DNA of 64,000 nucleotides, from the NCBI GenBank assembly GCA_963924555.1, contig OZ004594.1, forward strand, positions 2,945,563-3,009,562, written 5' to 3'. The notes below the pieces were generated by a model. The model was given only the letters and a program-made list of their open reading frames with translations, was not told the origin of the DNA and ran no database searches. Shown here piece after piece: positions 25,996 to 58,200 of this stretch (position 1 is the first letter of the stretch; the number at the start of each line of letters is the position of its first letter). This DNA comes from Crambe crambe (Eukaryota > Porifera > Demospongiae > Poecilosclerida > Crambeidae). The translations under genes were made by a program, and so were the position numbers.

Positions 25996-28900
25996 CTACA
26001 CATACTGAAAGAGTGAGATTGTTTTGAGTCTGTTGCAGAGCTGACCATATGTGGCCCCTTCTTTGGAGGACCACTTCTTCAGCATGAGGAAGGCTTGATC
26101 TTCCTCTTCTGTCTTCACTTCTTCTATCTCCTCACTGATCAGGGAGAGAAGGCAGGCCAGGGATGACCACTTGGATCCTACCACTCCAGCGAATAACTTC
26201 AGAAACTCAACATCAGGTGTAATGATTTGAAGCTTTGGGTCAAGCAGCTTTTTCTGGAGCTGAATGTGGTCACCTGCAGAATAAAATTAGTGACCTTTTA
26301 TATTCTTATGTATCCCCTTCAACTGGCTAAGGTCTTGACATTCACTTACTGTATTTCTCTTCAATCTCATTAGCTAGTGCTCCCCAGTTGATCTTCCTCA
26401 GTGCCTCCACAAGATGCCACCAGCATGGAGGGTCCAGGGAGGAGCTCATCCACTTCCTCACCAGTTCGGTCCTCTGTCCACTTGTATCAAGGAGATGGTC
26501 CCTCTTTATGGCCTCAAGGACACTTTGGGGGATGTTGAGATGGAGACCAAGGACAAATAACTCAGCTACTATGTCTCTAAGGTAACCAAAAACAGAGATA
26601 AAGTCTATAGGAAAAATACTGTTCCAATGAGTGAGTGCGCGCAACCATAGCAACTTAGAACGCTTCATCTTCCTCTTCCCGGTTACACTTATAACTACTT
26701 CTTTCCTATATGAAGATGTCAGGACCCTCTCCACATCACTCATGGTAAAGAGGTTGTCCTCACTAAGATAATCACCTTCTTTACTGGAGTCAAGCAGAAA
26801 GAACTGAGGTGTGATGGAGTGGCAGAACTCTTTCATGGTTTCCATTACACAGCTAATTATGCTATTGAAGATGCTATTGCAATTTTCCATGAAATCTTGT
26901 TCACTTTTTGTGATGACCACCACTCCCTTGTTGCCATTCACCATCTCCACCATGCATTCCGCCCCCTCCTCCATCTGCCAATGTACACCAGTCTTCCACA
27001 TGGTGCAGCGACGTTGACAGTAATGCTTGTAAAAAGAATCAGTTGCAGCTGCTTTAGCTTTTGCTGAAAGATGCACTTGAGGAGCAGTGAGGGTGAACCC
27101 GAAGACTATTCTGAGGAGAAGGACATGAAGGAAGCGTGGGGGGAAGTAGTCATGAGGATCAGTGCACTGTGCAAGCCACCCAATACTGTAACTGAGGTCA
27201 GGAGGTGTGGACCATGACACTTCACTCCTATCTGCACTGCAGAGAGCAGGAAAGAACAAGAAAGACTGGGGACTAGATGAAGTGTCCTGTGGTGTGGAAA
27301 GGAACAGTCCTATATCTTTGTGCTTGATTTCTTGGCAGTACTGAAGATGAACAAGGCATTCCTTTGTGATGTATGATGGTAAGAGCTTCTGGAGGAGATT
27401 TTCAGGGACGATTCCAATATTGAGGGAAGGAACATATCCACGTTCACTCATTTTTTTAATATTTAGAATTGCATCCTTGGAAAACAGGGCTTTATGAACT
27501 CTATTGGTTAGTTGAGATGTGTTTAATATTATGTGGTAATCATGCTTAGTTCTGTCTCCTATCAGTAATAAAATACCAACCTCGTGGAGCCCATGCAGTA
27601 TGGGGTGTTATAACTCAGCTTTATTGGGAAGGTGTACCCCAGTGTCCTCTATGTGGGATACTAATGTACTGACAGGACAAGCAGTGACATTGCTGAAATC
27701 TTTCTCCAATAACCCTAAAAGAATGCTTGCTTCAAAGGAAAGCCTATAACGTCGAGATTTACAAGTTAGGTTCGTAAATTTACTCTGGACCTCACTTATG
27801 TTTTTAGAACCTGGTTTACAGCAGTCTAGCATAAAATAACCAGTACTCTGCATCTCACTGGTATAGAGAAGTGATTTTAGAAATTTATTTTTCAGTGTTA
27901 AGATTTCTTGAGTCACCAAATCTGAGTGACTCCCAATCACAATGAGGGAGGGCTCATTTTTAAACTTTTGGTGTTTTATGAATGTGAACCAATAGTGCAG
28001 TGTATTCTCAATAACAGAATCATCTTCTCTTAAATCTGTCACTAAGATGAATATGTTGTCACCATTTCTTGAGGAGGCAAGATTCTCAAGTATAGCAGCA
28101 TGTGAGGAGTAGTACTCAGGGTCTCCGGCAAAGTCATGGAACTGGACTCTCCCATAGTGTTTACTGGTATAAATACTAGGGACTATACCAGCAGTGTGAG
28201 GGGGTACAGTGGATTCAGATACCCTCCAAAATGATTCAAAATAACCCTCTCTTTTAAGTGATTCAACAAGGGAACTCTTCCCTGCACCAGGATTACCAAT
28301 GATAAATAACCTGATTATATGTTGTGCACCTGAGTACTTCTTCTTTGCTCGCTCTTGCATACCATGATAGTCAACCAGTGTTTTATCTCGATTCTGTTTC
28401 ATGTACTCATTAATTAGTAATTTAGCATCACCTTTTGCTAAGTCCTTTGGAGTCTTTCCTGAATTATTTCTTATCAGAATTGGAGCATTTTTTTGAAGTA
28501 ATACCTCAACACATTTGGTATGGCCACGTGAGGAACAAATATGAAGGGGAGTATCACCATCATTGTCTAATACTAAGGGGGATGTGGATTTATCGACTAA
28601 TAAAAGTATAATCTCTTCTTTACCTGCCAATGCTGCTACATGGAGTGGTGTGCTATTTTCATCATCCCTAGCATTGATATCAGCCTTGTGGTATCGTATC
28701 AGAGTTTGAACTAGGCTAACATTACCTCCAATACATGCTGAATGTAACAAAGAACAACCTAAACTACCTTTGATATTAATGTCACAACCCACATCATTAA
28801 TTAAAAACAATGCAACCTCTTTTTCCCCACAAATTGCTGCCACATGGAGTGGTGTGTTATTATCATCATCCCTAGCATTGATATCAGCCTTGTGGTCTCG

Positions 28901-31900
28901 TATCAGAGTTTTAACTAGGCTAACATTACCTCCATTGCATGCTATATGTAACAATGACCGACCTTTATAACCTTTGATATTGATATCACAACCCATCTCA
29001 TTAATTAAAAACGATGCAACCTCTTTTTTCCCACACAATGCTGCAACATGGAGTGGTGTGTTATTATCATCATCCCTAGCATTGATATCAACCTTGTGGT
29101 CTCGTATCAGAGTTTTAACTAGGCTAACATTACCTCCGTTGCATGCAACATGTAACAAAGACCGATCTAAATGACCTTTGACATCAATGTCACAACCCAC
29201 CTCATTAATTAAAAACAATGCAACCTCTTTTTTCCCACCCAATGCTGCCACATGGAGTGGTGTGTTATTTTGATCATCCCTAGCATTGATATCAGCCTTG
29301 TGGTCTCGTATCAGAGTTTGAACTAGGCTAACATTACCTCCTTTGCATGCTATATGTAACAATGACCGACCTTTATAACCTTTGATATTAATATCACAAC
29401 CCATCTCATTAATTAAAAACGATGCAACCTCTTTTTTCCCACCCAATGCTGCCACATGGAGTGGTGTGTTATTTTGATCATCCCTAGCATTGATATCAGC
29501 CTTGTGGTCTCGTATCAGAGTTTGAACTAGGCTAACATTACCTCCTTTGCATGCTATATGTAACAATGACCGACCTTTATAACCTTTGATATTAATATCA
29601 CAACCCATCTCATTAATTAAAAACGATGCAACCTCTTTTTTTCCACAAAATGCTGCCACATGGAGTGGTGTGTTATTATCATCATCCCTAGCATTGATAT
29701 CAGCCTTGTGGTCTCGTATCAGAGTTTTAACTAGGCTAACATTACCTCCGTTGCATGCAACATGTAACAAAGACCAACCAAATTTGCCTTTAACATCAAT
29801 GTCACAACCCACCTCATTGATTAAAAACAATGCAACCTCTTTTTTCCCACACAATGCTGCCACATGGAGTGGTGTGTTATTATCATCATCCCTAGCATTG
29901 ATATCAGCCTTGTGGTCTTGTATCAGAGTTTGAACTAGGCTAACATTACCTCCATGGCATGCTGAATGTAACAAAGACCAACCTAAATGACCTTTGACAT
30001 TAATGTCACAACCCACCTCATTAATTAAAAACAATGCAACCTCTTTTTTCCCACACAATGCTGCCACATGGAGTGGTGTGTTATTTTGATCATCCCTAGC
30101 ATTGATATCAGCCTTGTGGTCTCGTATCAGAGTTTGAACTAGGCTAACATTACCTCCTTTGCATGCTATATGTAACAATGACCGACCTTTATAACCTTTG
30201 ATATTAATATCACAACCCATCTCATTAATTAAAAACGATGCAAACTCTTTTTTTCCACAAAATGCTGCCACATGGAGTGGTGTGTTATTATCATCATCCC
30301 TATGTAACAAAGACCAACCAAATTTGCCTTTAACATCAATGTCACAACCCACCTCATTAATTAAAAACAATGCAACCTCTTTTTCCCCACAAATTGCTGC
30401 CACATGGAGTGGTGTGTTATTATCATCATCCCTAGCATTGATATCAACCTTGTGGTCTCGTATCAGAGTTTTAACTAGGCTAACATTACCTCCGTTGGAT
30501 GCAACATGTAACAAAGACCGATCTAAATGACCTTTGATATCAATGTCACAACCCACCTCATTGATTAAAAACAATGCAACCTCTTTTTTCCCACACAATG
30601 CTGCCACATGGAGTGGTGTGTTATTATCATCATCCCTAGCATTGATATCAGCCTTGTGGTCTTGTATCAGAGTTTGAACTAGGCTAACATTACCTCCATG
30701 GCATGCTGAATGTAACAAAGACCAACCTAAATGACCTTTGACATTAATGTCACAACCCACCTCATTAATTAAAAACAATGCAACCTCTTTTTTCCCACAC
30801 AATGCGGCTACATGGAGTGGTGTGTTATTATCATCATCCCTAGCATTGATATCAACCTTGTGGTCTCGTATCAGAGTTTTAACTAGGCTAACATTACCTC
30901 CGTTGCATGCAACATGTAACAAAGACCGATCTAAATGACCTTTGACATCAATGTCACAACCCACCCCATTAATTAAAAACAATGCAACCTCTTTTTTCCC
31001 ACCCAATGCTGCCACATGGAGTGGTGTGTTATTTTGATCATCCCTAGCATTGATATCAGCCTTGTGGTCTCGTATCAGAGTTTTAACTAGGCTAACATTA
31101 CCTCCTTTGCATGCTATATGTAACAATGACCGACCTTTATAACCTTTGATATTAATATCACAACCCATCTCATTAATTAAAAACGATGCAACCTCTTTTT
31201 TTCCACAAAATGCTGCCACATGGAGTGGTGTGTTATTATCATCATCCCTAGCATTGATATCAACCTTGTGGTCTCGTATCAGAGTTTTAACTAGGCTAAC
31301 ATTACCTCCGTTGGATGCAACATGTAACAAAGACCGATCTAAATGACCTTTGACATCAATGTCACAACCCACCTCATTGATTAAAAACAATGCAACCTCT
31401 TTTTTCCCACACAATGCTGCCACATGGAGTGGTGTGTTATTATCATCATCCCTAGCATTGATATCAGCCTTATGGTCTCGTATCAGAGTTTGAGCTAGGC
31501 TAACATTACCTCCATGGCATGCTGAATGTAACAAAGACCAACCTAAATGACCTTTGACATTAATGTCACAACCCACCTCATTAATTAAAAACAATGCAAC
31601 CTCTTTTTTTCCACAAATTGCTGCCACATGGAGTGGTGTGTTATTATCATCATCCCTAGCATTGATATCGACCTTGTGGTCTCGTATCAGAGTTTTAACT
31701 AGGCTAACATTACCTCCGTTGCATGCAACATGTAACAAAGACCGATCTAAATGACCTTTGACATCAATGTCACAACCCACCTCATTGATTAAAAACAATG
31801 CAACCTCTTTTTTCCCACCCAATGCTGCCACATGGAGTGGTGTGTTATTTTCATCATCCCTAGCATTGATATCAGCCTTGTGGTCTCGTATAAGAGTTTT

Positions 31901-33556
31901 AACTAGGCTAACATTACCTCCTTTGCATGCTATATGTAACAATGACCGACCTTTATAACCTTTGATATTAATATCACAACCCATCTCATTAATTAAAAAC
32001 GATGCAACCTCTTTTTTCCCACACAATGCTGCCACATGGAGTGGTGTGTTATTATCATCATCCCTAGCATTGATATCAGCCTTGTGGTCTCGTATCAGAG
32101 TTTCAACTAGGCTAACATTACCTCCGTTGCATGCAACATGTAACAAAGACCGATCTAAATGACCTTTGACATCAATGTCACAACCCACCTCATTAATTAC
32201 AAACAATGCAACCTCTTTTTCCCCACCCAATGCTGCCACATGGAGTGGTGTGTTATTTTGATCATCCCTAGCATTGATATCAGCCTTGTGGTCTTGTATC
32301 AGAGTTTGAACTAGGCTAACATTACCTCCGTTGCATGCAACATGTAACAAAGACCGATCTAAATGACCTTTGACATCAATGTCACAACCCACCTCATTAA
32401 TTAAAAACAATGCAACCTCTTTTTTCCCAAAACCTGCTGCCACATGGAGTGGTGTGCTATTTTGATCATCCCTAGCATTGATATCAGCCTTGTGATCTCG
32501 TATCAGAGTTTGAACTAGGCTAACATTACCTCCATAGCATGCATAATGTAACAAAGACCGACCCAAACCACCTTTGACATTAATGTCACAACCCACTTCA
32601 TTAATTGAAAACAATGCAACCTCTTTTTTCCCAAAACCTGCTGCCACATGGAGTGGTGTGCTATTTTGATCATCCCTAGCATTGATATCAGCCTTGTGGT
32701 CTCGTATCAGAGTTTGAACTAGGCTAACATCACCTCCAATGCATGCATTATGTAACAAAGACCGACCCAAACCACCTTTGACATTAATATCATAATCCAC
32801 TTCATTAATTAAAAACAATGCAACCTCTTTTTTCCCATAAGATGCTGTCACATGAAGTGGTGTGTTATTTTGGTCATCCCTAGCATTGATATCAGCCTTG
32901 TGATCTTGTATCAGAGTTTGAACTAGGCTAACATTACCTCCCTGACATGCCTTGTGTATTAAGGTCATACCAGAACTATCTTTAACATTGATATCAGATT
33001 CAAACTCATTAAAAATAAATAAGGTAATGTCTTCTTTCCCATTCATGGCAGCCACATTAAGTGGAGTGTTATCTCCACTATCCTTAGCTTTTATATCAGC
33101 TTTATAATCTCGTATCAAAGTTTGAACTAGATCCTTATTGCCTCCTATGCAAGCAAAGTGAAGTAATGTCTGATTCCTTTTACTTTTTACATTTGAAGGA
33201 CAGTGATACTCATTCAATAGAGTAAGCACCACATGCTCCCACCCATTCAAAGCAGCATCTATTAGTGGTATGCAACCATTAACATCCTTAAAGAGTACAT
33301 CAGCATTGAAATCAGATATCAGTACCTTCATCATATCTAAGTGACCTTTAGCACAGGCATAATGCAGTGGAGTCTTCCCATTGGAGTCAGTACAGTTTAC
33401 ATTGTACTCACCACTTTGCAGTAATTCCCTGACCTTATCCACATCACCTGACTCTGCAGCTAGGTGGAGGGGGGTGACACCAGTGACTGAGGAAGTGGAG
33501 GCCATAACATTTCTTATTGCTTCTTGTTTATCCAGTATAGCTACGATGGGAATCAT
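25996..33556 (-). pseudogene. Giant ankyrin / Roc-like GTPase / death-domain gene A, with one in-frame stop
   Basis: Exon 1 is 33556-26350 and exon 2 is 26273-25996 (GTAAGT donor, CTGCAG acceptor, phase 1). The ATG at 33556 has an in-frame TGA two codons upstream. Residues 20-1690 are about 50 ankyrin repeats, mostly 68-residue pairs (TPLHVAA, SLLH-AC-GGNVSLV). Then come a Roc-like GTPase with P-loop GNPGAGKSSL (about 1752), DFAGDPEYYSSH (switch II, about 1809) and GSHSDL in place of NKxD, a COR-like winged helix, and two death-like domains ending WWHLVEALRKI--ALANEIEEKY and WSSKEGATYGQLCNRLK. The layout recalls DAPK1 without its kinase. Codon 1983 is TAA (27610-27608) where paralogue B has TTA; beyond it the frame is open for another 419 codons. 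So this is either a recent null allele, an error, or two products. Function as an immune or death adaptor is inferred. Confidence 0.8.
28630..32990 (-). repeat. Coding tandem array of 204-bp double-ankyrin units
   Basis: About 21 units of 204 bp (68 codons, two ankyrin repeats each) lie in one exon of gene A. Units differ mainly in the linker word: INIKGYKGRS (Y), IDVKGHLDRS (D), INVKGHLGWS (W). In protein order, units 5-12 read Y-D-W-D, Y-D-W-D, an 816-bp higher-order repeat. Units 17 and 18 are almost the same. One unit (near 30301) lacks 72 bp. The homogeneity indicates recent unequal exchange or gene conversion. Confidence 0.95.
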
Positions 33557-36500
33557 AAATCACATGACTTTAGCTACTATATTTAGTGTTGATGAATCTC
33601 TTGCCTCCACTAGTCTAATAGTAGACAATGACCACAACATCCTCTAACTACAACTCCTGCAACTAGAATTGTCATGAGATACTCATAAAGCTAAGAGACA
33701 TAACTATATAGCTAGTCTGATATCTCCAGAGATGAACTAGTTATGAATAAAATAACACGAAAATGATAGAAAAATAGCCAAAAAAACAAAACAAAACAAA
33801 AACAAATGAAAAATAAAATTTATGGTTGATGCAAAACTACTGAATAAGAGAGGATGCACTAAATGGAACAATCACACCTTTGATGATACACAAACACACT
33901 TAGAATAATACATTAGATTAGAAAGCCCTAAAGACAGTGTGTACCTTATTTCTAATTTATAGTGTAAAGATGTAATTGTTCTATTATTTCTAGTGTATAA
34001 ATGTACTGTATGTCCTTTATGACCTCTACAATAATACATACAACACATTTAAACACTAGAAAAAAATTAATAAGGTTGATGCACTAAATTAGAGAGGACA
34101 CACTAAAAGATAATTGGAAAGACACACACTAGAGGTTACATTGAATAGAGATACACACTACTCTGGCTATAGATTGAGGACACACATTACATTAGAGAGA
34201 TACACACTACTCTGGCTATGGATTGAAGACACACATTACATTAGAGAGATACACACTACATTATACACAATCACTAGATAGAGGAATTAGATACATACCA
34301 GGCAGAAGATAAAAATGGAGAAATGAGTGGAATATTTAATCCCACCGGTGAATCCCTGGGATCCAGATCAGGATACTGACTCTGGTCAGTTTAGAGATAG
34401 ATTATCCTGGAAAACCTAGATACTCTATTTGCTAACTGGAGAAATGAGTGGAAATCAAAACACAAAATAGTGCTAGCTAACGATGAAACGGGTCAAGGAT
34501 AACACAGAAATTACTATACGGTTACCATAGCTACAAGGGAATAAAGGACACCATAAAGGATATGATAATACAATAAGAGATGATGATATAGAACACCCAG
34601 ATAATAAATCTTATCAGCCTCCACAATTCCACTACTGTTCACAAAATCAAATATTTAATCCCACTCCCTCTAGATTGGTAAATCCCTGGGATCCAGTTCA
34701 GGCTGGTCAGTTCAGAGATAGCTCAGAGATAGATACAGATGAATGTGGTCAGTTTGGAGTCTAGTGAAGATAGCTTACTCCTGGAAGACCTAGATACTCT
34801 ATTTGCACACACACACACACACACTACCACACATCCTATTTATGTACGTACAAAAATTTTGACCCCAAGTGCACTCAACAACCACCATCACATACATCCA
34901 TATACAACTAAACCCTCCAACCATCAATCTTCCAGTGCCATAGATCCCTGCTACTAGTAATAGGTGTGTGGTGGGGGGATAAGGGTGGGTGCATGGATTT
35001 TGAGAAGAGGGGGTACATTAAAGGAGTGGGGTGTGTGGGAGAAAGGGATACTTTTATCTCCTCACTGGTAAGGGAGAGAGAGACCATGCATACAACCTAC
35101 CAGGACGACATACAACCATGGTAATTAGCTATACTGATAAAAACAGCTAAATGAAGTGAGCACTTGTTTATAAAATGCATTCTTCTCTCAAATGTTAAGG
35201 GGAAGTAAACTAACTACAAATCAAGTGCATCTAGTAAACATACTAAAACAACAAAGGTGAGTATTTAGGATAAGGGGACCTGTCATGTTCATTCATTCAA
35301 ATTCTAACCCACTAATTCCAGTGACAGTGAATTTGAAGGCAGCACCTCAGCTGAGCTGACCAAGAAGAAGTATCTGGTGGAAATATAGACTGGATGCACC
35401 AATGGTTGGTTGAAGAACTTAGCCTGATCAGTCTGTGGTGAGTTCATTATGATTTCTCTTCCTGCTTCATAATTATAATAATTGCTCTGTTATCATTCAT
35501 TGTGTGTTATAATATAACTGGTCCTGAAACTTGGTCTGTACATTGTAGTAGACTCTAGTAGGCTGGATAATCATTCACAGTAGCTTTTATTAAGACTAAG
35601 TGGGGGAACTAGAATTTCACTTTTGTATTAGTCTATAGGCGGTGCGCGCAGCCGTCTGCGCCATCCCTACATAGAGAGAGTCTCTGATTCATAAAATAAT
35701 TATTCAAGTATATAGGTATAACAAGCACTACACAAAGGGCAATGATAACAAAAATTATTCTGCATGCAAAATTAAGATAAAAAATGAGCTCAAGATAAAA
35801 TATTGTAACATTAGTGTATCAAGTGTTTATAATGAGGTATTATGTATGCATGTGAATGTACCAAAGGTTTGGAATACACAATTGTGTACAGTGCTCAAAC
35901 TCTTGACGTAGCAGAAGAGCTGAAAGTATTTTCTTCTGTGGGAATAAGAGTTCAAGTACTTAACTGCAGCCGAAAAAAGTGTTAACTGTAGACTTCAAGT
36001 ATGCTGTAGCCAGGTAAAGAGTTCAAGTATTAACTGTAGCCGGATAAAGAGTTCAATATTAACTGTAGCCAGATAAAGAGTTCAAGTATTAACTGTAGCC
36101 GGATAATAATTTCAAGTATTAACTGTAGCCAGATAAAGATTTCAAGCATTAACTGTAGCCGGATAAAGAGTTCAAATATTAACTGTGGCCTCATAAAAAT
36201 TTCAATATTAACTGTAGCCGGGTAAAGAGTTCAAGTATTAACTGTAGCCAGATAAAGAGTTCAAGTATTAACTGTAGCCGGATAAAGAGTTCAAGTATTA
36301 ACTGTAGCCGGATAAAGAGTTCAATATTAACTGTAGCCGGATAAAGAGTTCAAGTATTAACTGTAGCCGGATAAAGAGTTCAAGTATTAACTGTAGCCGG
36401 ATAAAGAGTTCAAGTATTAACTGTAGCCGGATAAAGAGTTCAATATTAACTGTAGCCGGATAAAGAGTTCAAGTATTAACTGTAGCCGGATAAAGAGTTC

Positions 36501-37888
36501 AAGTATTAACTGTAGCAAGATAAAGATTTCAAGCATTAACTGTAGCCGGATAAAGAGTTCAAATATTAACTGTGGCCTCATAAAAATTTCAAGTATTAAC
36601 TGTAGCCGGGTAAAGAGTTCAAGTATTAACTGTAGCCAGATAATGAGTTCAAGTATTAACTGACTGTGGCCTGATAAAAGTTCAAATATTAACTTTGGCT
36701 GAACTGGACGAATAGTTGAGGTATATAGAGATGAAAATTGTAGGGAAGAGTGTAAAAACTAACACTTGGCCCTCTTAGGATTTTGTTTGGAAGATTTGAT
36801 TGGGAAGTGTCCTTCTACTTCTCTGGACAATAACAAGAGAAAGAGAGAAAACAATGGCTACATGTCACATTGTAAATGGTCACAAATGATTATTACTCTT
36901 ACCATGATCCACTAAAACTCATATGATACATCATTGCCTTAGATTGATACTCACTGTGAACCTGTCTCAGAAGAAGAACCCTATGAATATGGAACATAAT
37001 AATTGGTCACATGACAGGGGAGAATGGTCACATGACTACTTACCTGGAGGGAATGTCATGTCACCTGGAAGAATTATTGCCAAGTACCTGGAGGAGAATG
37101 GTCACATGACATCCAGGGGGGAAAATGACCACATGACCACCTGGAGGAGGAGATTATAAAAATAAACAAGTAAAATGAGTCTACACTAACACTTACCAAT
37201 TCCATTAGTGTGTGAAGTACTTGTGTTGTGCAGTTTCAATGGGAGGGAACTAGTATATATAGCAACAGACTAATGATGGAATGAAAATAACATGTCAAGA
37301 GACAGAGAAAGTAATGGAAGATGGTAATATCAGAGAGTATTGTTCAAGGAGATAGGGAAAGGACTAGCTAGTATGACTCTGATTATGAAAATAGGAGATA
37401 TGTGAGTATGGAAGGATAATCAACAGACATGAAACTGAAAATGCAATGTATTTTTTATAATTATTAATAGAAAAGTTACACATTAGAAAAAGATTTGAAA
37501 GGTACACATTAGTCCAGATTATACAGAAGATGATTGGAAGTGCATATACTAGAAATTACAAAAGAGACAGTCTAAGTGGAGGTTATAAACAACAGATGAG
37601 AAAATATACACACTAGATAGAGGATATTCACAAAAATTATGCACTAAATACGTAGAGGAATTGGATGCATATAAGATAGAGGATATTAGCATGAAGAGAT
37701 AGCGATAAAATTAGATGGATAAAGAAATGACCAACAACAAAGGACACAAGCTAACTATAAATACACACACCATACGGGATAAAGAGAGATAGCTATAAAA
37801 CCTAATGGAGGGAGGAAAGAACCATAGGTGACTAAACTTATACAAAATATGTCAATTAGCTACCAACACAAACTAAATAGATTATTTT
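33557..37888. other. Intergenic between the two ankyrin genes
   Basis: AT-rich sequence with several short repeats. 34146-34265 has a repeat of about 50 bp (ATACACACTACTCTGGCTAT). Two similar 120-bp segments, both with AATCCCTGGGATCCAG, lie at about 34330-34440 and 34650-34760. There is a CA run near 34807, the 30-bp minisatellite (35950-36699), and a cluster of CACATGAC phrases at 37008-37135. No well supported gene was found. 35655-35695 resembles the hairpin end of the 51-kb repeat. Confidence 0.6.
35950..36699. repeat. Minisatellite, 29-30 bp unit, about 25 copies
   Basis: Tandem copies of TTCAAGTATTAACTGTAGCC followed by GGATAAAGAG. Some units lack a base pair (TTCAATATT), some carry CAGATAAAGA or CTCATAAAAA in the last third. 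A block of about six units starting near 36130 is repeated near 36510 with the same variants, so the array itself has been duplicated in part. No coding frame. Confidence 0.95.
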
Positions 37889-40800
37889 CTACACATACTG
37901 AAAGAGTGAAATTTTTTTGAGTTTGTTGCAGAGCTGACCATATGTGGCCCCTTCTTTGGAGGACCACTTCTTCAGCATGAAGAGGGCTCGGTCTTCCTCT
38001 TCTGTCTTCACTTCTTCTATTTCCTCACTGGTCAGGGAGAGAAGGCAGGCCAGGGACGACCACTTGGATCCTACCACTCCAGCAAACAACTTCAGGAACT
38101 TAATATCAGGTGTAATGGTTTGAAGCTTTGGGTCAAGCAGCTTTTTCTGGAGTTGAATGTGGTCACCTGTAGAATGAAATTGCCATTACAGTAGCCATAC
38201 AGCTATATTGTCATAGTAACTCACTGTATTTCTCTTCAATTTCATTCGCTATGGCTCCCATGTCTATCTTCCTCAGTGCCTCCACAAGGTGCCACCAGCA
38301 TGGAGGATCTAGAGAAGAATTCATCCATCCTCTCACCAGTTCTCTCCTCCTTCTGTCAGTATCTGTAGGATAGTCCTCTTCTATGGCTTCAAGGACACCT
38401 CGGGGTATTTCAAGCTCAAGACCAAGATCATACAATTTTCTGACTAGATTTTTGAGATGATGAAGGATAGAGGGGAAGTCAAAAGGGAACAAACTGTTCC
38501 AATGAGTGAGTTTGCGCATGCATAGCAAATTAGTACGTTTCATCATTCCCTTTCCTGTTTTGCTAATGACGACTTCCCTTCCCCCAGCAGATATCAGGAC
38601 CTCCTCCACTTCAGTTATATCAAACAGGTTGTCCTCACTGAGATATTCATCCTCTTTTGTGGAGTGAAGGAGAAAGAACTGAGGTCTGATGGAGTGGCAG
38701 AACTCTTTCATGGTCTCCATCACACAACTAACTATGCTATCGAAGACACTAATGCAATTTTCAATTAAATCATCTTCACTTTTAGTGGTCACCACTACTC
38801 CCTTATTGATGTTCACCATCTCCACCATACACTCCACCCCCTCCTCCATCAGCCAGCGTACACCAGTTTTCCACATAATGCAGCGACGCTGCAAGTGCTG
38901 AAGTTCAACTTTCGATGAAGGAGCATGCACTTGGGGGACAGTAAGGGTGAACCTGAAGACTATTCTGAGGAGAAGGACATGAAGGAAGCGTGGGGGGAAG
39001 TAGTCGTAAGGATCAGTGCACTGTGCAAGCCACCCAATACTGTAGCTGAACTCAGGAGGTGTGGGCCATGACACTTCTCTCTTATTTGTGCTACAAAGAG
39101 CAGGAATGAACAGGAAAGACTGGAGACTGGATGAAGTGTCTCGTGATGTGGAAAGGAATAGCCTTATATCTTCTGGCTTGATTTCTTGACAGTACTGAAG
39201 ATGAATGAGGCTTTCTTTAGTGATATATGGAGGTAAAATCTCTTTAAGGAGATTTTCAGGGAGGATTCCAATTTTGAGTGAAGAATCATATCCAAGTTTG
39301 TACATATTTTCAATATTTTGGATTGCATCTTTAGTGAACAAAGCTTCATGCACTTCATTGGTGAGTTGAGATGTATTTAATATTATGTGGTAATCATGTT
39401 TAGTTCTGTCTCCTATCAGTAATAAAATACCAACCTCATGGAGCTCATGCAGTATGGGGTGTAATAATTCAGCTTTATTGGGAAGGTGTACCCCAGTGTC
39501 CTCTATGTGAGAGACTAATATACTGACAGGACAAGCAGTGACATTGCTGAAGTCTTTTTCCAATAACCCTAGTAGAATGCTTGCTTCAAAGGAAAGTTCA
39601 TACTTACTTGATTTACTAGTAAGGTTTGAGATTTGGTCCTGGACCTCACTAATCTCAATGGATCCTGGTCTGCAGCAATCCACCATGAAATGTGTTGTGC
39701 TCTGTACCACATCAAGAGAAATCTCTTTAAGAAATGATTTAATGATTTCAATTTGTTTGTTTAAAGTATTCAAGGTCATTAAATCTAAGTGACTCCCAAC
39801 TACGATAAGGTGAGGCTTTTTTTCGAATCTCTGGTTCCATATGAATGTGAACCAATAGTGTAATTCCTTTTTCAGAGCAATCTCACTTTTTCTCAAATCT
39901 ATTACAATAATAAAAATATTATCCCCTTTCTGTGAAAATGTTAGATTCTCGAGTATAGCAGCATGTGAGGAGTAGTACTCAGGGTCTCCAGCAAAGTCAT
40001 AGAACTGGACTCTCCCATAGTCTCTACTTGTATGAATACTAGGGATTATGCCAGCAGTGTGAGGGGGTACAGTGGATTCAGATATTCTCCAAAAAATATT
40101 AAAAAAACCTTCCCTTTTAAGTGATTCAACAAGGGAGCTCTTCCCTGCACCAGGATTACCAATGATAAATAACCTGGTTATATGTTGTGCACCTGAGTAC
40201 TTCTTCTTTGCATGCTCTTGCATGCCATGATAGTCAACCAGTGTTTTATCTCGATTCTGTTTCATGTACTCATTAATTAGTAATTTAGCATCACCTTTTG
40301 CTAAGTCTATTGGAGTCTTTCCTGAATTATTTCTTATCAGAATTGGAGCATTGTTTTGTAGCAGCATCTCAACACATTTGGTGTGGCCAAGAGATGAACA
40401 AATATGAAGGGGAGTGTTACCAGCATCATCCCTAACTAAAAATGCAGTATGCATCTTTTCCAAAAGATAAATAATCAGATGAGCGTGTCCAAAAATACAT
40501 GCATAATGTAACAATGAGTTGCCAAAGGAACCTTTGCAATTTACATCACAGCCAAATTCCTCTATTAAAACTTGTAGGATTTCAGATCTCCCATGCATTG
40601 CAGCATAATGAGTAGGCATATTATTTTGATCATCCCCAGCACTTGTATTTACTCTATGATCTTGTATTAGAGTTCGAACTAGACTGATATTATCTCCTAT
40701 ACATGCACTATTTAGCAAGGAACCTGATTGGCCTCTGATATTCACATCACAACCCACCTCATTAATTAAAAATAATGTGACATTTTTTCCCCCACACAAT

Positions 40801-42539
40801 GCTGCCACATGGAGTGGTGTATTATTTTCATTATCCCTAGCATTAATATCAGCCTTGTAGTCTTGTATCAGAGATTGAACTAGGCTAACATTACCTCCAC
40901 GGCACGCTGAATGTAACAAAGACCAACCTGAAATGCCTTTGACATTAATGTCACAACCAACTTCATTAATTAAAAACAATGCGACCTCTTTTTCCCCGCC
41001 CAATGCTGCCACATGGAGTGGTGTGTTATTTTGATTATCCCTAGCATTGATATCAGCCTTATAGTTTTGTATCAGATCTTGAACTAGGCTAACATTACCT
41101 CTATTGCATCACCTAGGGCATGGTATAGGGAACAGTGTGTTGAATTAAATTTCCCATAACCATGTTATGATGGTTATGATGGTTATGATTTCATTGGAGA
41201 ATTATACACTGTGTTAGCTATTACATATCTTACACAAGGATGGATGAATAATTTCATTGAAGAAAGCTATTCCATATCTTGCACATACTGGCTATTATTT
41301 TATACGGTTATATGAAAAATCGTACATCATGGTTATGGTGGTTATAGTTGGTTATACATGGTTATTGCTGGTTATGCATGGTTATTCATGGTTATCCATG
41401 GTTATTACTGGTTATCCATGGTTATTGCTGGTTATGCATGGTTATTCATGGTTATTTATTGCTGGTTATCCATGGTTATTGCTGGTTATGCATGGTTATT
41501 TATGGTTATTCATGGTTATTTATGGTTATTCATGGTTATTGCTGGTTATGCATGGTTATTCATGGTTATTTATTGCTTTGCACTGTGTAACAAAGACCTA
41601 CCTGAATAAACTTTGATATCAATGTCACAACCCACCTCATCAATTAAAAATAATGCAACCTCTTTTTTCCCACACAATGCTGCCACATGGAGTGGTGTGT
41701 TATTTTGATCATCCCTAGCATTGATATCAGCCTTGTAGTCTTGTATCAGAGTTTGAACTAGGCTAACATTACCTCCATAACATGCCGAATGTAACAAAGA
41801 CCAACCTAACCTGCCTTTGATATAAATGTCACAACCCACCTCATTAATTAAAAACAATGTAACCCCTTTTTTCCCACCCAATGCTGCCACATGGAGTGGT
41901 GTGTTATTTTGATCATCCCTAGCATCAATATCAGCCTCGTGGTTTTGTATCAGAATTTGAACTAGGCTAACATTACCTCCAAAACATGCTGAATGTAACG
42001 AAGACCGATCTAAATAACCTTTGACATTTATGTCACAACCCATTTCATTAATTAAGAACAATGCAACCTCTTTTTTTCCACCCAATGCTGTCACATGGAA
42101 TGGTGTGTTATTTTGATCATCTCTAGCATCAATATCAGCCTTGTGGTCTCGTGTTAGAGTTTGAACTAGGCTAACATTACCTCCAAAACATGCTGAATGT
42201 AACAAAGACCGACCTAAATAACCTTTGACACTAATGTCACAACCCACATCATTAATTAAAAATAATGCAACCTCTTTTTTCAAACTCGATGTTGCCACAT
42301 GGAGTGGTGTGTTATTTGCATCATCCCTAGCATTGATATCAGCCTTGTGGTCTCGTATCAGAGTTTGAACTAGGCTAACATTACCTCCATAACATGCTGA
42401 ATGTAACAAAGACCAACCTAAAATACCTTTAACATTAATGTCACAGCCCACCTCATTAATTAAAAACAGTACAACATCTGTTTTCCCACACAATGCTGCT
42501 ACATGGAGCGGTGTGTTATTTTGGTCATCCCTAGCATCA
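37889..42539 (-). pseudogene. Ankyrin / Roc-like GTPase / death-domain gene B, 5'-truncated and interrupted
   Basis: Paralogue of gene A. From the 3' end: the last exon 38166-37889 encodes the second death-like domain (stop at 37891-37889). The large exon 41108-38225 runs open and encodes six to eight ankyrin repeats, P-loop GNPGAGKSSL, YDFAGDPEYYSSH, GSHLDL, the COR-like region with LLHPILHELHEVGILLL, and the first death-like domain. Its donor is GTGAGT. Upstream, 42539-41579 continues the ankyrin repeats, but 41578-41109 is a foreign minisatellite that introduces a stop. The 5' end breaks off inside an ankyrin repeat at 42540, where a foldback element begins, and no ATG or promoter remains. 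Unlike gene A, the GTPase-to-death part has no stop. It is probably a non-functional relic, though a downstream-initiated product is possible. Confidence 0.8.
41109..41578. repeat. 470-bp minisatellite-bearing insertion within ankyrin gene B
   Basis: Foreign sequence between TTGCA (41104-41108) and TGCACTG (41579-41585). The part 41335-41576 is a minisatellite of 12-18-bp words such as GGTTATGCATGGTTATTCAT. Joining the two flanks exactly restores a normal ankyrin repeat (LLHSAC then GGNVSL-like), so the left and right limits are secure. It is not an intron: the ends on the coding strand are AA...GA, and the nearest GT/AG pair would shift the frame. No terminal inverted repeats were found. Confidence 0.75.
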
Positions 42540-42986
42540 ACAAGTGAATGCAAAAAATTTCTTCGAAATAAAAATGTGAAGTAGGGATGCTATTATAACT
42601 GCAGCTTCATTATGAAAACCAAGTACTGCAGCATCGAAGCAGTATGGCCCAAAAATCTAGCTGGAATATGTATTATAACTGCATGCAAGAGAGTGAACTT
42701 AGTGAAGTGACCCTTACCCATCATCAAGTACGAGATACTATTCCTACTTCACTCCCTTGGCCCTTGATCATGGGAGTGAAGTAGGAATAGTATCTTGTAA
42801 TTGATGATGGGTAAGGGTCACTTCACTAAGTTCACTCTCTTGCATGCAGTTATAATACATATTCCAGCTAGATTTTTGGGCCATACTGCTTCGATGCTGC
42901 AGTACTTGGTTTTCATAATGAAGCTGCAGTTATAATAGCATCCCTACTTCACATTTTTATTTCGAAGAAATTTTTTGCATTCACTT
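42540..42986. mobile_element. Foldback element, core type A, copy 1
   Basis: A nearly perfect 447-bp hairpin: arms of about 216-220 bp around a spacer of about 15 bp (TTGGCCCTTGATCAT region). Ends read ACAAGTGAATGCAAAAAATT and the reverse complement. It directly abuts the broken ankyrin gene B. No coding capacity. Copy 2 lies at 45376-45824. Confidence 0.9.
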
Positions 42987-44011
42987 GTTTGCATTCTTTT
43001 TCTTTGTGATTATGAAAATTGATAGACACTAAAGGCTTCCTTGATTGAACTAAATTTATTTAATGATCAGTATTTCATTCTGTTCAGGGAGGAGAGTTTG
43101 AAGGATGATCATCTGCAGTGTAATGGAGTACTGAAAGGAGTGAACATTTTAAAAAGTGAACAGCATTAGCTAATTGTTACATATGTGATCACTGAAATAA
43201 TTATTGAGATGGTACGTATGTCTTGCTTGAGGGAGGAGTATGGGGAGTTTATGCATTTGGTGTAGTGATCATAATAGTGGATGCCATCAAATGGCCACAT
43301 CCTGTGCAGGTGTTATATGAGGAGAACTGCTATTAATTGCCCCACCCCTTTTATGAGGTAATATCGCGAAGATTTTTTTCATACGAGGCTGCAGCACATT
43401 ATAGATAGCCCAGCTAGATTTTAGGCTATCCCTACTTAACCTTTTTATTTGAAGAAATTTTTTACGCTCACTTGTTTCTATCCTTTTTCTTAGTGCTTGA
43501 AGTTGAATGAGGGAGGCTACAGTACAGTACTATACAAAGCCAGCTCTACATAAACCTCTTTTGTAGGTACATACTGGTTGAAGAATTTGTTTAGCTATTT
43601 AAGTTTTGTTGATATAAAACTTTACAGCAACAGCAATGTAAATGACATGTACACGGCATGGTGAAGTGAGCTGACTACACTACAGCCAAGTACTGGCTAT
43701 AATGCTACTATAAGATGAGCATCTGTACTGTGATTCAGCAAGGAGTGACTGGAACATCATCAGATAATGAATGAAGACCTTGGCTATAGCTAAACTTAAG
43801 CTTACGTGGCTCCGCCCATAAGCCCCGCCCCCTTCAAAATGGCGTAGAAAGATTAGCAGCTGTGTTCCGAGTGCTATCGAATAGTGAAGTAGAGCCTTAG
43901 TCAAAACTAATAGCAAAAGATCAGCCTCTAGGTGCCGCTCTAACAGATGGCCAAAGCAGAATTTTGATGACTATAGCCAGTAAGTCGGTACGTCGATCTT
44001 ATTATTATTGC
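42987..44011. repeat. Composite repeat unit 1: linker, solo foldback arm and GC-box module
   Basis: Holds a linker that recurs at 45825-46019 plus 47369-47560, a single arm of the core-type-B hairpin (43377-43476, recurring at 47564-47652), the phrase ACTACAGCCAAGTACTGGCT shared by all units, and the GC-box module 43798-44003. Minus-strand frames here (such as one of 78 codons) recur only because the DNA is repeated. Confidence 0.8.
43798..44003 (+). repeat. GC-box / ATGGCG module, first of seven copies
   Basis: A module of about 205 bp starting AGCTTACGTGGCTCCGCCCA, with CCCCGCCCCC, then CAAAATGGCG, and ending GTACGTCGATCTTAT. Further copies: 45139-45352, 47984-48187, 50815-51028, 52157-52371, 53066-53278, and inverted 53802-54013. 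A much older relative is at 54479-54600. GC boxes and an ATGGCG (YY1-like) site make it look like promoter DNA, but no downstream gene is attached. Confidence 0.8.
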
Positions 44012-45824: not shown

Positions 45825-48209
45825 TTGCATTCTTTTTCTTTGTGATTATGAAAATTGATAGACACTAAAGGCTTCCTTGATTGGACTAAATTTATTTAAT
45901 GATCAGTATTTCATTCTGTTCAGGGAGGAGAGTTTGAAGGATGATCATCTGCAGTGTAATGGAGTACTGAAAGGAGTGAACATTTTAAAAAGTGAACAGC
46001 ATTAGCTAATTGTTACATACAGTGCCACAGGCTTAAAGAGTAGAACTTTTGTATTTTTCATGTTTCTGTGTTCCAGAGTTTATATTTTCTAAGCTACAGG
46101 TCAGAGGGGTCTGAAACTCAGCAAGGATATAAATCAGCTATCACTCTCACTACATTACAAATATCAATGTTGAAAATGAAACTGTATTGTTTATAAACAA
46201 CTGCACGCGAAGGTACCTAAAACGGGTGTGGGATTCACCTTTTTTAGCTCATAATTTCTATAATTCATTTAGTTAAGGTCTACAATCTTGAATATTTCTT
46301 CCACTAGCACTAGTATCACCTCTACAGTTCTCTTTGCCACTCTAGCACAAGGTAAGTTCCACAATATTCAGTAGAAGCTGTTTTTTCTTCATATTTTTAG
46401 GTCCAAATGTGTTTAGATCATATTTTGTCCAAATATTGTAGTTAAGATTCATTATTTGAAAAGCATGTCCAACTAGTGTCCAGTTTACATCGCTCCAAAA
46501 ATCGAGTTCCATCCTTCAACGGTTTCTGCGTTACAGCTGTGTTTGTCGCTAGACTGGAGATCGAGCAACGAATCTGTGACGTCACAAGCACCACGTGGCC
46601 TCGTTAGTTTGCCGCCATTTTCCCACTGTAGCCTTACATGCAGCTAGAGATCTATAAAACGATGGCAATCGACATGTTAGCAATTTTTTTAAGCTAAGAC
46701 AGGGGTCTGCAACTTATATTTTCTTTCTACAGGTCTGCAAACTTACAGCGGGAAAATGGCGCTAAACTAGCGAGGCCGGCACGTGGTGCTTGTGACGTCA
46801 TGATTTGTTGCTGAATCCTAGCTTTTACTCCGGTCTAGCGACAAACACAGCTGTAACACAGAAACCGTTGAATGATGGAACTCTATTTTTGGAGCGATGT
46901 AAACTGGACACTAGCTGGACATGCTTTTCAAATAATGAATCTTAACTACAATATTTGGATAAAATATGATCTAAACACATTTGGACCTAAAAATATGAAG
47001 AAAAAACAGCTTCTCTTGAATATTGTGGAAACCTACCTTGTGCTAGAGTGGCAAAGAGAACTGTAGAGGTGATACTAATGCTAGTGGAAGAAATATTCAA
47101 GATTGTAGACCTTAACTAAATGAATTATAGAAATTATGAGCTAAAAAAGGTAAATCCCACACCCGTTTTAGGTACCTTCGCGTGCAGTTGTTTATAAACA
47201 ATACGGTTTCATTTTCAACATTGATATTTGTAATGTAGTGAGAGTGATAGCTGATTTATATCCTTGCTGAGTTTCAGACCCCTCTGACCTGTAGCTTAGA
47301 AAATATAAACTCTGGAACACAGAAACATGAAAAATACAAAAGTTCTACTCTTTAAGCCTGTGGCACTGTATGTGATCACTGAAATAATTATTGAGATGGT
47401 ACGTATGTCTTGCTTGAGGGAGGAGTATGGGGAGTTTATGCATTTGGTGTAGTGATCATAATAGTGGATGCCATCAAATGGCCACATCCTGTGCAGGTGT
47501 TATATGAGGAGAACTGCTATTAATTGCCCCACCCCTTTTATGAGGTAATATCGCGAAGATTTTTTTCATACGAGGCTGCAGCACATTATAGATAGCCCAG
47601 CTAGATTTTAGGCTATCCCTACTTAACCTTTTTATTTTTTACGCTCACTTGTTTCTATCCTTTTTCTTAGTGCTTGAAGTTGAATGAGGGAGGCTACAGT
47701 ACAGTACTATACAAAGCCAGCTCTACATAAACCTCTTTTGTAGGTACATACAGTGTCTCTGGTTGAAGAATTTGTTTAGCTATTTAAGTTTTGTTGATAT
47801 AAAACTTTACAGCAACAGCAATGTAAATGACATGTACACGGCATGGTGAAGTGAGCTGACTACACTACAGCAAAGTACTGGCTATAATGCTACTATAGGA
47901 TGAGCATCTGTACTGTAATTCAGCAAGGAGTGACTGGAACATCATCAGATAATGAATGAAGACCTTGGCTATAGCTAAACTTAAGCTTACGTGGCTCCGC
48001 CCATAAGCCCCGCCCCCTTCAAAATGGCGTAGAAAGATTAGCAGCTGTGTTCCGAGTGCTATCGAATAGTGAAGTAGAGCCTTAGTCAAAACTAATAGCA
48101 AAAGATCAGCCTCTAGGTGCCGCTCTAACAGATGGCCAAAGCAGAATTTTGATGACTATAGCCAGTAAGTCGGTACGTCGATCTTATTATTATTATTATC
48201 CTTATTATT
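45825..48209. repeat. Composite repeat unit 3, duplicate of 42987-44011, carrying an insertion
   Basis: Matches 42987-44011 in the same order, with a 1349-bp element (46020-47368) inserted at a TA. It includes the solo foldback arm 47564-47652 and the module 47984-48187. It lacks the 0.64-kb dispersed repeat found after unit 1. Confidence 0.8.
46020..47368. mobile_element. 1349-bp foldback element with TA duplication
   Basis: Long inverted arms (about 550-600 bp) begin CAGTGCCACAGGCTTAAAGA and end with the reverse complement; a non-palindromic centre lies near 46620-46720. It is bordered by TA at 46018-46019 and 47369-47370. The undisturbed sequence ACATATGTGATC is present at 43180-43192, so the insertion point and duplication are proved within the window. 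TA targeting and CAGTG ends fit Tc1/mariner-type elements. The 64-codon frame at 46872 is not a transposase. Arms contain GTGACGTCA and AAAATGGCGC sites. Confidence 0.9.
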
Positions 48210-54450: not shown

Positions 54451-55264
54451 AATAATAATAATAAGGATAATAAATATAAGATCGATGTATTGACTCACTG
54501 GCTGCAGTTAGCAGAATTATGTTAATGTCATTTCTTAGAGGGGCACCTAGAGACTGGTCTTTTGCTATTAGTTTTGACTAAGGTTCTACTTTGCTAATCA
54601 GCGCTACCTATAGTATGCGAACACTATCTACGCCATTGTTAATTTAATGGGTAAATGGTCGTCAATTACGTAGCAACAAGCGCGCGCCGGTTACCTTATT
54701 CAAATGCAGCTGCTTCTGTGTTACTGAGTCCTAGATCTACAGTGCAGTTTGATATTTCTCCTGACACATTCTCTGACTTCAGCTGCTTGCAACTTGGAAC
54801 TCTCTCTATTCTTTCAGAAAAAAAACCTCTGTCCCTCTAGTAGCAGTTTTGTGTAACAAGGTACATTAAATGCCATAACTGTACTTATTATTATTTATAA
54901 ATGTTTCTCCCTGTGACTTCAGCTGCTTTGCCACTGTCAAATTTGGTTTCTTGGCCTATATGTTCACTGTGTCCTACAGAGCAGTTTGACTTCTGAAAAA
55001 TTCTCTGACTTCAGCTGCTTGCAAATTGGAACTTTCTATTCTTTCAAGCAATCCTTTGTCCCTCTAGTAGCAGTTTGTATAACAAGGTACATTCAATGTC
55101 ATAACTGTACTTATTATTATAAGTGTTTCTCTGTCTGACTTCAGCTGCTTTGCCACTCTCAACTTGAAATTCTTTCTTCGCTGTCTTTCTGACTTCAATC
55201 TCCTGTCTCTCACTTTATCTCTCACTTTTTCACCTTCAGTGAGTTGTAACATACCAATATAAGT
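54451..55264. other. Old module relic and tandem duplication upstream of the Helitron gene
   Basis: 54479-54600 is a diverged relative of the GC-box module. 54761-54935 and 54995-55160 are two copies of a segment of about 235 bp with CAGCTGCTTGCAA, CTTTGTCCCTCTAGTAGCAG-like and AACAAGGTACATT phrases. Both copies carry polypyrimidine-rich TTCTTTCAG sequences. No gene was seen; this may be the 5' non-coding end of the Helitron. Confidence 0.6.
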
Positions 55265-58200
55265 ATGCCCTCAAAAGAACGAAAGAAAAAGGCTAATAGG
55301 AGAGAAGCTAATAGAAGGTACTACCAAAAAAATAAATTTTCCTTAAATGCACAATCACGAGAATATAATGCAGTTCACAAACAGGAATTAAGGGCACGAT
55401 CACAAAAATTTAATATAACTCACAGACAAGAATTGAAAGCACGATCAAAACAATACAATAGAGCTCACAGACAGGAATTGAAAGTGCTATCACAAAAATA
55501 TAAAATAACTCACAGACAGGAAATGAAAGTACAATCACAAGAATACAATAGAGCTCATAGACAAGAATTGAAAGCACGATCACAAGAATACAATAGAGCT
55601 CATAGACAAGAATTGAAAGTACGATCACAAGAATACAATAGAGCTCACAGACAAGAATTGAAAGTACGATCACAAGAATACAATAGAGCTCATAGACAAG
55701 AATTAAAAACTAAAGCACATAAATACAATAGAGCTCACAAAAAACAATTAAGTGCTTATTACAGGCAATACTATAAAATAAATAGCACTCAGATCAAAAC
55801 AGCTCAAAGACATTACTACTCTATTCATAAAGATAAGAAAATGGTTGCGGTTAGGAAATATCAGCTAAGAAATGCCAGGAAGATTTTGAAGTGGGCAAGA
55901 AAGTATTATGCTGAGCATCGTGCACGCATTGGTGCTAACAGGAGGCGAAGGTATGAACTTACTGAGCCTAAGCCTCTTACTAAAGAAAATTATATCAGAG
56001 AAATAACCAAAAAATTAATCAGTAATAGTCATGCCTCTAGACAAATGCTGCAGTCCTTTAAAGATCAGCATGAAAAAATTGCTCTTAAAATGACTGCAGC
56101 AACCTCTAGACGAGCTGCATCCTCTATAGCAGCTACAAGGTTGGTGAACAAGGTGCTGCAGATACGAAGGCATCTAGCTGGCTCCTTGTTAAAAATGGTA
56201 AGAGCAATTAATAAACTAAGCATATCCACTGAGAGTGATTTGGGTGAGGGTTCACATTGTGTTCATGGTGAACCATATTATTATGAAAGTTCCTATGTTC
56301 ATAATAGACCAAGCATTATTTGTATTGATGAGCATGGAAAATATAGATTGCTTGATGATGACAAAAATACCGTGGAGCATGTGGTTCCACGCTCATGGAA
56401 ATGCAATGACACATGTAGGACTCTATCACAATCTGATTTGTCATGCATTATTGAATTCAAATCAGTATTTAACGAGTCCCTGCAGAAAATACGTAAAGTT
56501 TTGGATGAGTGTGATGAATGTCCAAATAGCAAGTATGCTAAGGTAATCATTGTCCCAGCAAATGAGCCTGATAGTAACGTAGTACACTATAACTCTGTGG
56601 AATTAAAGGGACATAGTTTGATCTGTCACATTGGCAGTGATTGCAAAAGTAAGCTGAGAATCCTAAGAGCAGCATCGACTCACTATCCTGTGTTGAGGTC
56701 GTTCTTAAGATGTGTGTACTCAGCATTAAATAGCCATAAAAATATTGCTTCCCTTGATGAAGCTCTACACCGTGGAGACTTTAACAGCTTAATGAGAGAT
56801 TTTGAAATCACCTTTGATGATCTATTCAGTAATGAAGTCAATCTGTCTCATGAGCTTGAAAGTAGTTTCGCAAAATGTGTGCTTAGAAGACCAGATTTAG
56901 AAAAGCACCTTCAAATAGAGCACGCCGAAGTGATGGCAAAATATAAAAAAGAATTAGAAGATTATCCTCAGAATCCTTGCTGTAGCTGTAATATGCTCTT
57001 TTGTCTCAAGCAAGGCTCAAAAATTACTTTCAGTACAGAACTCGGCAACGTGTGGCTGGATTTAAAAGATTTCATCCTTAAGGATGATCCTAATGCTTCA
57101 AAAAAGACTCTGTTCATATGCACGTATTGCAGGTCTTATTTGAGGTCCAATAAAATGCCACCAAGATGTGTGCTCAATGGTTTACAAACCTCTCCAATAC
57201 CCAGAGAGCTGAGCGTGTTGGATGAGTTGAGCAAACAGCTCATTCAACGAGCGAAAGCTTTTCAAACTATAGTCAGGTTGGGCACTTATACAAACAAGGT
57301 GCCATCCTACAATTCACTTAAAGCCTGTAAGGGTAACATGTTTTTCTTACCCCTACCCCTGGACAAGACTCTAGAGACTCTTGATGGGGTTGAAGGATCT
57401 CTTGCTAACCCTGAACTTTACATTATAGTGAACAGTAAGCCCACCAAAGGCAATGTAGTGTGGCGAAGCTTAGTAGATGTAAATCAGGTAAAGGCTGCTA
57501 TCAAGAAGTTAAAAGAGTGCAACTGGCTCTACAAAGATGTCTGCGATGAATCTGTAGACTCTGCTGCCAAGGAGGTTATTGAAGTGGTAAGTAATACCTC
57601 TAGTACTGTGCTGGAAAAGGCCTCAAGTAGTGATATTGCTGGGTTCCAGTGCTACACACTGAGAGATATGAATGACAAACTCTCCACCAAAGATGACCTA
57701 CAACAATATAAAATGCTAAGCGTGCAAGAGGAACCTTTGAGTAGCACTCAAAGGCACCTCGATACCATGTGTTTCCCAGTCCTCTTTCCGGACGGAAACT
57801 TTGGTAAGTACCACCCTAGACAGGTGCCAGTATCCCACAGCGAATACGATAAGTCCCGTCTGTGGAACAATGACTCTCGCTTTAGAAAAGACCCTCAGTA
57901 TGTCTTTTATCTCCTAAAGGAGAAGGAGTCAAGGGAGTTAAAAGCTGGTGTGTATAATTTGCTTAAGACATCAAAATCCATTCCCACAACAGTGACTAAC
58001 ATTCTCCAGAAGGTCACAGCCAGTGACCAAAAACTTGAAGCTAACCTGTCCACTATGTTTCAGTCCATTCGTGGCACGAAACAGTATTGGTACAGGAGGA
58101 AGGGTGAATTAATGTGCATGTTGCGGGAACTGGGGCCTCAAAGCCTATTCCTAACCTTCAGCTGTGCAGAATATGAGTCACCTGACATAGCTGAGTACCT

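Follow-up and report, generated by a model that had tools for sequence, protein, structure and literature searches.

Results

Organisation of the locus

The window, a stretch of 64,000 nucleotides of Crambe crambe DNA (contig OZ004594.1), carries on its minus strand two related genes, here called A and B. Their features, in window coordinates, are as follows.

27608-33505, minus strand: upstream frame of A with ankyrin array and Roc GTPase, from the family ATG to the stop (1965 codons)
28430-33470, minus strand: ankyrin array of A (approximate limits), with a DNA period of 204 bp over most of it and about 91% matches
27920-28309, minus strand: Roc GTPase domain of A (Pfam PF08477, residues 1751-1880 of P0001); the family profile resembles LRRK2 Roc structures
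27608-27610, minus strand: in-frame TAA of A, leucine in 29 of 29 other sampled members
27449-27451, minus strand: first in-frame ATG after the stop of A (codon +53), present in 17 of 29 aligned rows
26350-27607, minus strand: frame of A from the stop to the donor, with COR-like region and first death-like domain (419 codons and one base)
26357-26548, minus strand: first death-like domain of A (Pfam E 0.092 in A alone, weak; family profile against FADD structures E 4.8e-6)
26274-26349, minus strand: intron of A, 76 nt, GTAAGT...CTGCAG, donor at 26349
25996-26273, minus strand: exon 2 of A, second death domain and natural stop TAG (Pfam PF00531, E 8e-8, above cut-off)
38211-41108, minus strand: ankyrin repeats, Roc, COR-like region and first death-like domain of B, with no stop at the homologous codon 39462-39464
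41110-41578 (about), minus strand: 469-bp insert of B, which carries a 10/20/30-bp minisatellite and breaks the ankyrin frame
41570-42589, minus strand: upstream remnant of the ankyrin array of B, starting mid-array without the family N-terminus

The upstream frame of A is open from 33559, with the family ATG at 33505, and the downstream frame is open to 26342 (421 codons), exon 1 ending at 26350. Exon 2 encodes an intact death domain of 91 amino acids. A shortened ankyrin repeat that preserves the frame, reading KFGWSLLHRDDDNN, occurs in A around position 30300; it borders two tandem-repeat blocks. A second copy of A was not found in the assembly, the 3' flank of A giving a full-length match to itself only.

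In B, the part from Roc to the death-like domain is an open frame. A family N-terminus near B was found neither among the matches listed nor in a motif scan of B's side. Frame-compatible splice pairs span the insert, the best of them using the donor CAGGTAGGT at 41601, and these sites suggest that the insert could possibly be removed by splicing. Between the two genes, positions 35990-36694 are taken up by a 30-bp tandem repeat in about 24 copies. Beyond B, two nearly identical frames of 96 codons lie about 4.2 kb apart on the minus strand (43680-43970 and 47865-48155), pointing to a local duplication. The plus strand contains an open frame of 2383 codons at 55250-62401 with a Helitron-like N-terminal part, a PIF1 helicase and two OTU stretches; it represents a mobile element of the Helitron type that has kept its frame unbroken.

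Domain architecture

Pfam detected ankyrin repeats and Roc in both genes, with PF08477 above the curated cut-off in each. Across 22 family members and with E-values up to 0.1, ankyrin repeats and Roc PF08477 were present in all 22, and Death in 13. A family profile built without the ankyrin part matched Roc structures of LRRK2 with E 1.6e-5 and death domains of FADD with E 4.8e-6. A death-fold domain is thus present in A, as exon 2 scores above the PF00531 cut-off and the first domain is recognised via the family profile. Roc is followed by a conserved region whose place and size fit COR; the Pfam scans gave no COR family and the profile search no COR structure, and we call this region COR-like from its position only. 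A structure model of the Roc-COR part, calculated from window sequences only, had a mean pLDDT of 31.8, which is too low for use. No match to a kinase domain was obtained in the open reading frames of A and B (P0001-P0004).

A single nonsense codon in gene A

Gene A reads TAA at 27608-27610, in the context GCT GAG TTA TAA CAC CCC ATA, about 55 residues past the Roc match, while the homologous codon of B (39462-39464) encodes leucine in the context GCT GAA TTA TTA CAC CCC ATA. Re-reading of both codons confirmed the TTA to TAA change described in an earlier note on this DNA. The 419 further open codons claimed there were counted correctly from the stop to the donor, and the splice sites and domain motifs said to be kept are indeed in place, namely the GTAAGT/CTGCAG intron and the exon for the second death domain. 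The choice of B as reference held in part: B has leucine at this codon, but it is not itself intact, having neither the family N-terminus nor an ankyrin frame free of the 469-bp insert. The comparison was extended to other sampled family members, and 29 of 29 have leucine at this position. Relative to its homologues, A therefore contains a disabling lesion. Apart from the TAA, no lesion was found across its 2477 codons.

The gene family in the genome

The genome searched measures 143 Mb in 119 contigs. With the part of A after the stop as query, at least 101 rows matched, and at least 58 of them did so with 49% identity or more over at least 400 of the 421 residues. The part of B from Roc to the first death-like domain matched at least 64 rows, at least 60 of which cover 700 or more of the 711 residues. 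The copies lie in arrays on C17, C18 and C15, with a few elsewhere, and are mostly in tandem. Among the titles and abstract openings listed by literature searches, none describes an ankyrin-Roc-COR-like-death-death family in a sponge.

A stop was reported in ten of the 60 near-full-length rows, and it is internal in A and L028. In L018, L019, L026 and L027 it lies just beyond the exon donor, and the open-frame lengths suggest the same for the other four rows (C18 5441490, 5269912 and 5281339; C6 3317644). L028 (G000:C18:5473990-5478210) has a single internal TAG in its first death-like domain (codon index 814), after which another 97 codons are open. An interruption between Roc and the COR-like region was observed in gene A alone. 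Among the 101 rows matching the post-stop part of A, six have stops (1 to 5 per row), which shows that older decayed copies exist. Furthermore, at least five members (near L004, L010, L015, L018 and C18:5574427) switch frame between N-terminus and COR, and these switches within the ankyrin arrays represent either a lesion or an intron.

Outside this genome, a homologue with ankyrin repeats and 49% identity (L039, JACERO010000092.1) was found on a contig filed under a Nitrosopumilus MAG, the one such contig among the genome contigs; it is probably host DNA of another sponge in the MAG bin. At the position of the stop, L039 has leucine according to the MAFFT alignment (column L261, invariant); by eye it may be glutamine, with one extra residue there. 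In viral contigs, none of 13 candidate stretches was confirmed as a relative.

Constraint and age of the lesion

We compared A with 19 members by NG86 dN/dS (L021 dropped, C18 members left out). The median was 0.21 before the stop and 0.32 after it, and the other members gave 0.15-0.45 and 0.20-0.40, respectively. As A lies within the range of its relatives, it was under constraint until recently, a result that taken alone fits equally a gene with both halves still in use. Before the stop, A has a single private change, which is nonsynonymous; after it, 2 private changes are synonymous and 8 nonsynonymous, including one at a glutamate kept by 26 of 28 others. Intact members show similar nonsynonymous to synonymous private counts after the stop position (8 to 2 in L014, 11 to 2 in L011), so that the private changes of A say nothing for or against relaxation.

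Because the 2477 codons contain no further lesion, neutral divergence since the loss is bounded at 0.35-1.2% if the whole gene is dead and at 1.6-4.9% if constraint was lifted from the downstream part alone, assuming that about 3-5% of random substitutions create a stop and that 0-0.1 indels occur per substitution. Around the site the closest paralogues are nearly identical to A; between codons -120 and +175, A and L006 differ at 11 of 819 aligned bases. Both results agree with a very young lesion, one of the alternatives given in the earlier note.

In the family alignment, the nonsynonymous to synonymous ratio is raised to 0.57 and 0.72 at about codons +190 to +220 and +370 to +400 past the stop, and to 0.88 in a third segment near +130 with low synonymous change, while it is mostly 0.2-0.4 elsewhere. 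These segments are possible variable patches.

Mosaic identity to other members

We followed the identity of A to other members in 150-bp bins. Over the stretch that begins some 600 bp ahead of the stop and reaches 450 bp past it, identity is 97-99% with L006, 95-99% with L009 and 90-100% with L011. Beyond 450 bp past the stop, the identity of these three drops to 64-69% (64% for L006 in the next bin), and in a later bin A is up to 98% identical to L002 and L003. This mosaic pattern suggests that gene conversion or unequal exchange within the tandem array shaped A.

Discussion

Origin and consequence of the stop codon

The stop could be an artefact, the assembly having acquired a wrong consensus or base call in an intact gene. 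This would be in line with the integrity of the rest of A, and at modest base quality the assembly of 60 or more long genes should yield a small number of false stops. However, cross-mapping of reads from near-identical paralogues would favour leucine, the residue of all sampled members, and real single-stop and more decayed copies exist in the same family. We regard an error as unlikely, although it is the strongest of the rival readings. A stop that is tolerated, as considered in the earlier note, or selected appears more doubtful still. Here the products of A would be an ankyrin-Roc protein and, perhaps, a second protein with COR-like and death parts translated from the ATG at 27451, and it fits that the stop comes after the Roc match, close to what may plausibly be a domain boundary, and that both sides are open and were constrained in the past. 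Against this, none of the other near-full-length members among the 60 is split at this place, and the geometry of stop and exon junction predicts nonsense-mediated decay. The ATG at 27451 is not specific to A, as the 17 rows which have it are nearly all unsplit and the others do not contain it. It was thus not gained for a separate-effector role, and it was rejected as an internal start particular to A.

Least probable is a bypass of the stop, whether ribosomes read through it or splicing removes the stretch in which it lies. The bases after the UAA, CACCCC, do not fit the readthrough motif CARYYA, which argues against the readthrough considered in the earlier note. For splicing, weak donors of the GTGAG type are present at 27858 and 27795, in frame with downstream acceptors in 12 combinations, but each of these would remove 79-270 codons of conserved sequence, including part of the Roc tail or the COR-like region, and the sampled members read the stretch as a single exon. 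An intron around the stop was therefore dismissed as unsupported. It may also be speculated, at low odds, that the stop segregates as an allele whose product is a soluble ankyrin-Roc decoy lacking the death domains, and that this variant is maintained for a regulatory role in a sponge family resembling death receptors; gene conversion by near-identical neighbouring genes could then remove it or pass it on.

Based on the sequence comparisons, we consider it probable, at roughly three in four, that A is a null allele or pseudogene of very recent origin, whether fixed or segregating, and not a split gene of which both halves work. We infer loss of function of A, decay of its message, and birth and death in the family together with gene conversion. 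Until recently, A would have functioned as part of the tandemly expanded ankyrin-Roc-COR-like-death-death family, and a single nonsense mutation would then have struck it shortly behind the Roc domain. Exon-junction-dependent nonsense-mediated decay usually follows a 50-55 nt rule. As the stop of A lies 1258 nt ahead of the last exon junction, far above this distance, the message is expected to be unstable and predicted to be degraded. Any protein still made from it would be an ankyrin-Roc fragment without death domains. The family as a whole would gain, lose and recombine members by duplication and gene conversion.

Taken by itself, the stop of A would be nothing unusual for an early stage in the history of a large tandem family. 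With intact, single-lesion and multi-lesion members in one genome (at least 60 of them near-full-length), the family offers material for estimating the turnover rate of recognition-type families in animals and for asking whether young null alleles segregate, which may merit a study of its own.

Comparison with known systems

The Roc GTPase domain is shared with the ROCO proteins, LRRK2 and its relatives. In contrast to these, the present family has no COR model at cut-off and no kinase in the scanned frames, and it has ankyrin repeats in front and two death-like domains behind. DAPK1 is organised as ankyrin repeats, Roc-COR and death domain, and the order of ankyrin repeats, Roc, COR-like region and death domain is the same here. 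Differences from DAPK1 are that neither a kinase nor a calmodulin-binding region was found in the frames of A and B, that a second death domain is encoded in a separate exon, and that at least 60 members exist in one genome. A study on the sponge Amphimedon presents TRADD-N and other lineage-specific expansions of death-fold domains, which are read there as immunity or cell-death proteins (eLife 2021, PMC8195603). As described there, the Amphimedon expansions are likewise large, occur in a sponge and pair death-like domains with ankyrin repeats (PMC8195603). Their death-like and TRADD-N domains are placed at the N-terminus (PMC8195603), whereas in the Crambe family, in which no TRADD-N was found, the death-like domains are C-terminal and accompany a Roc GTPase.
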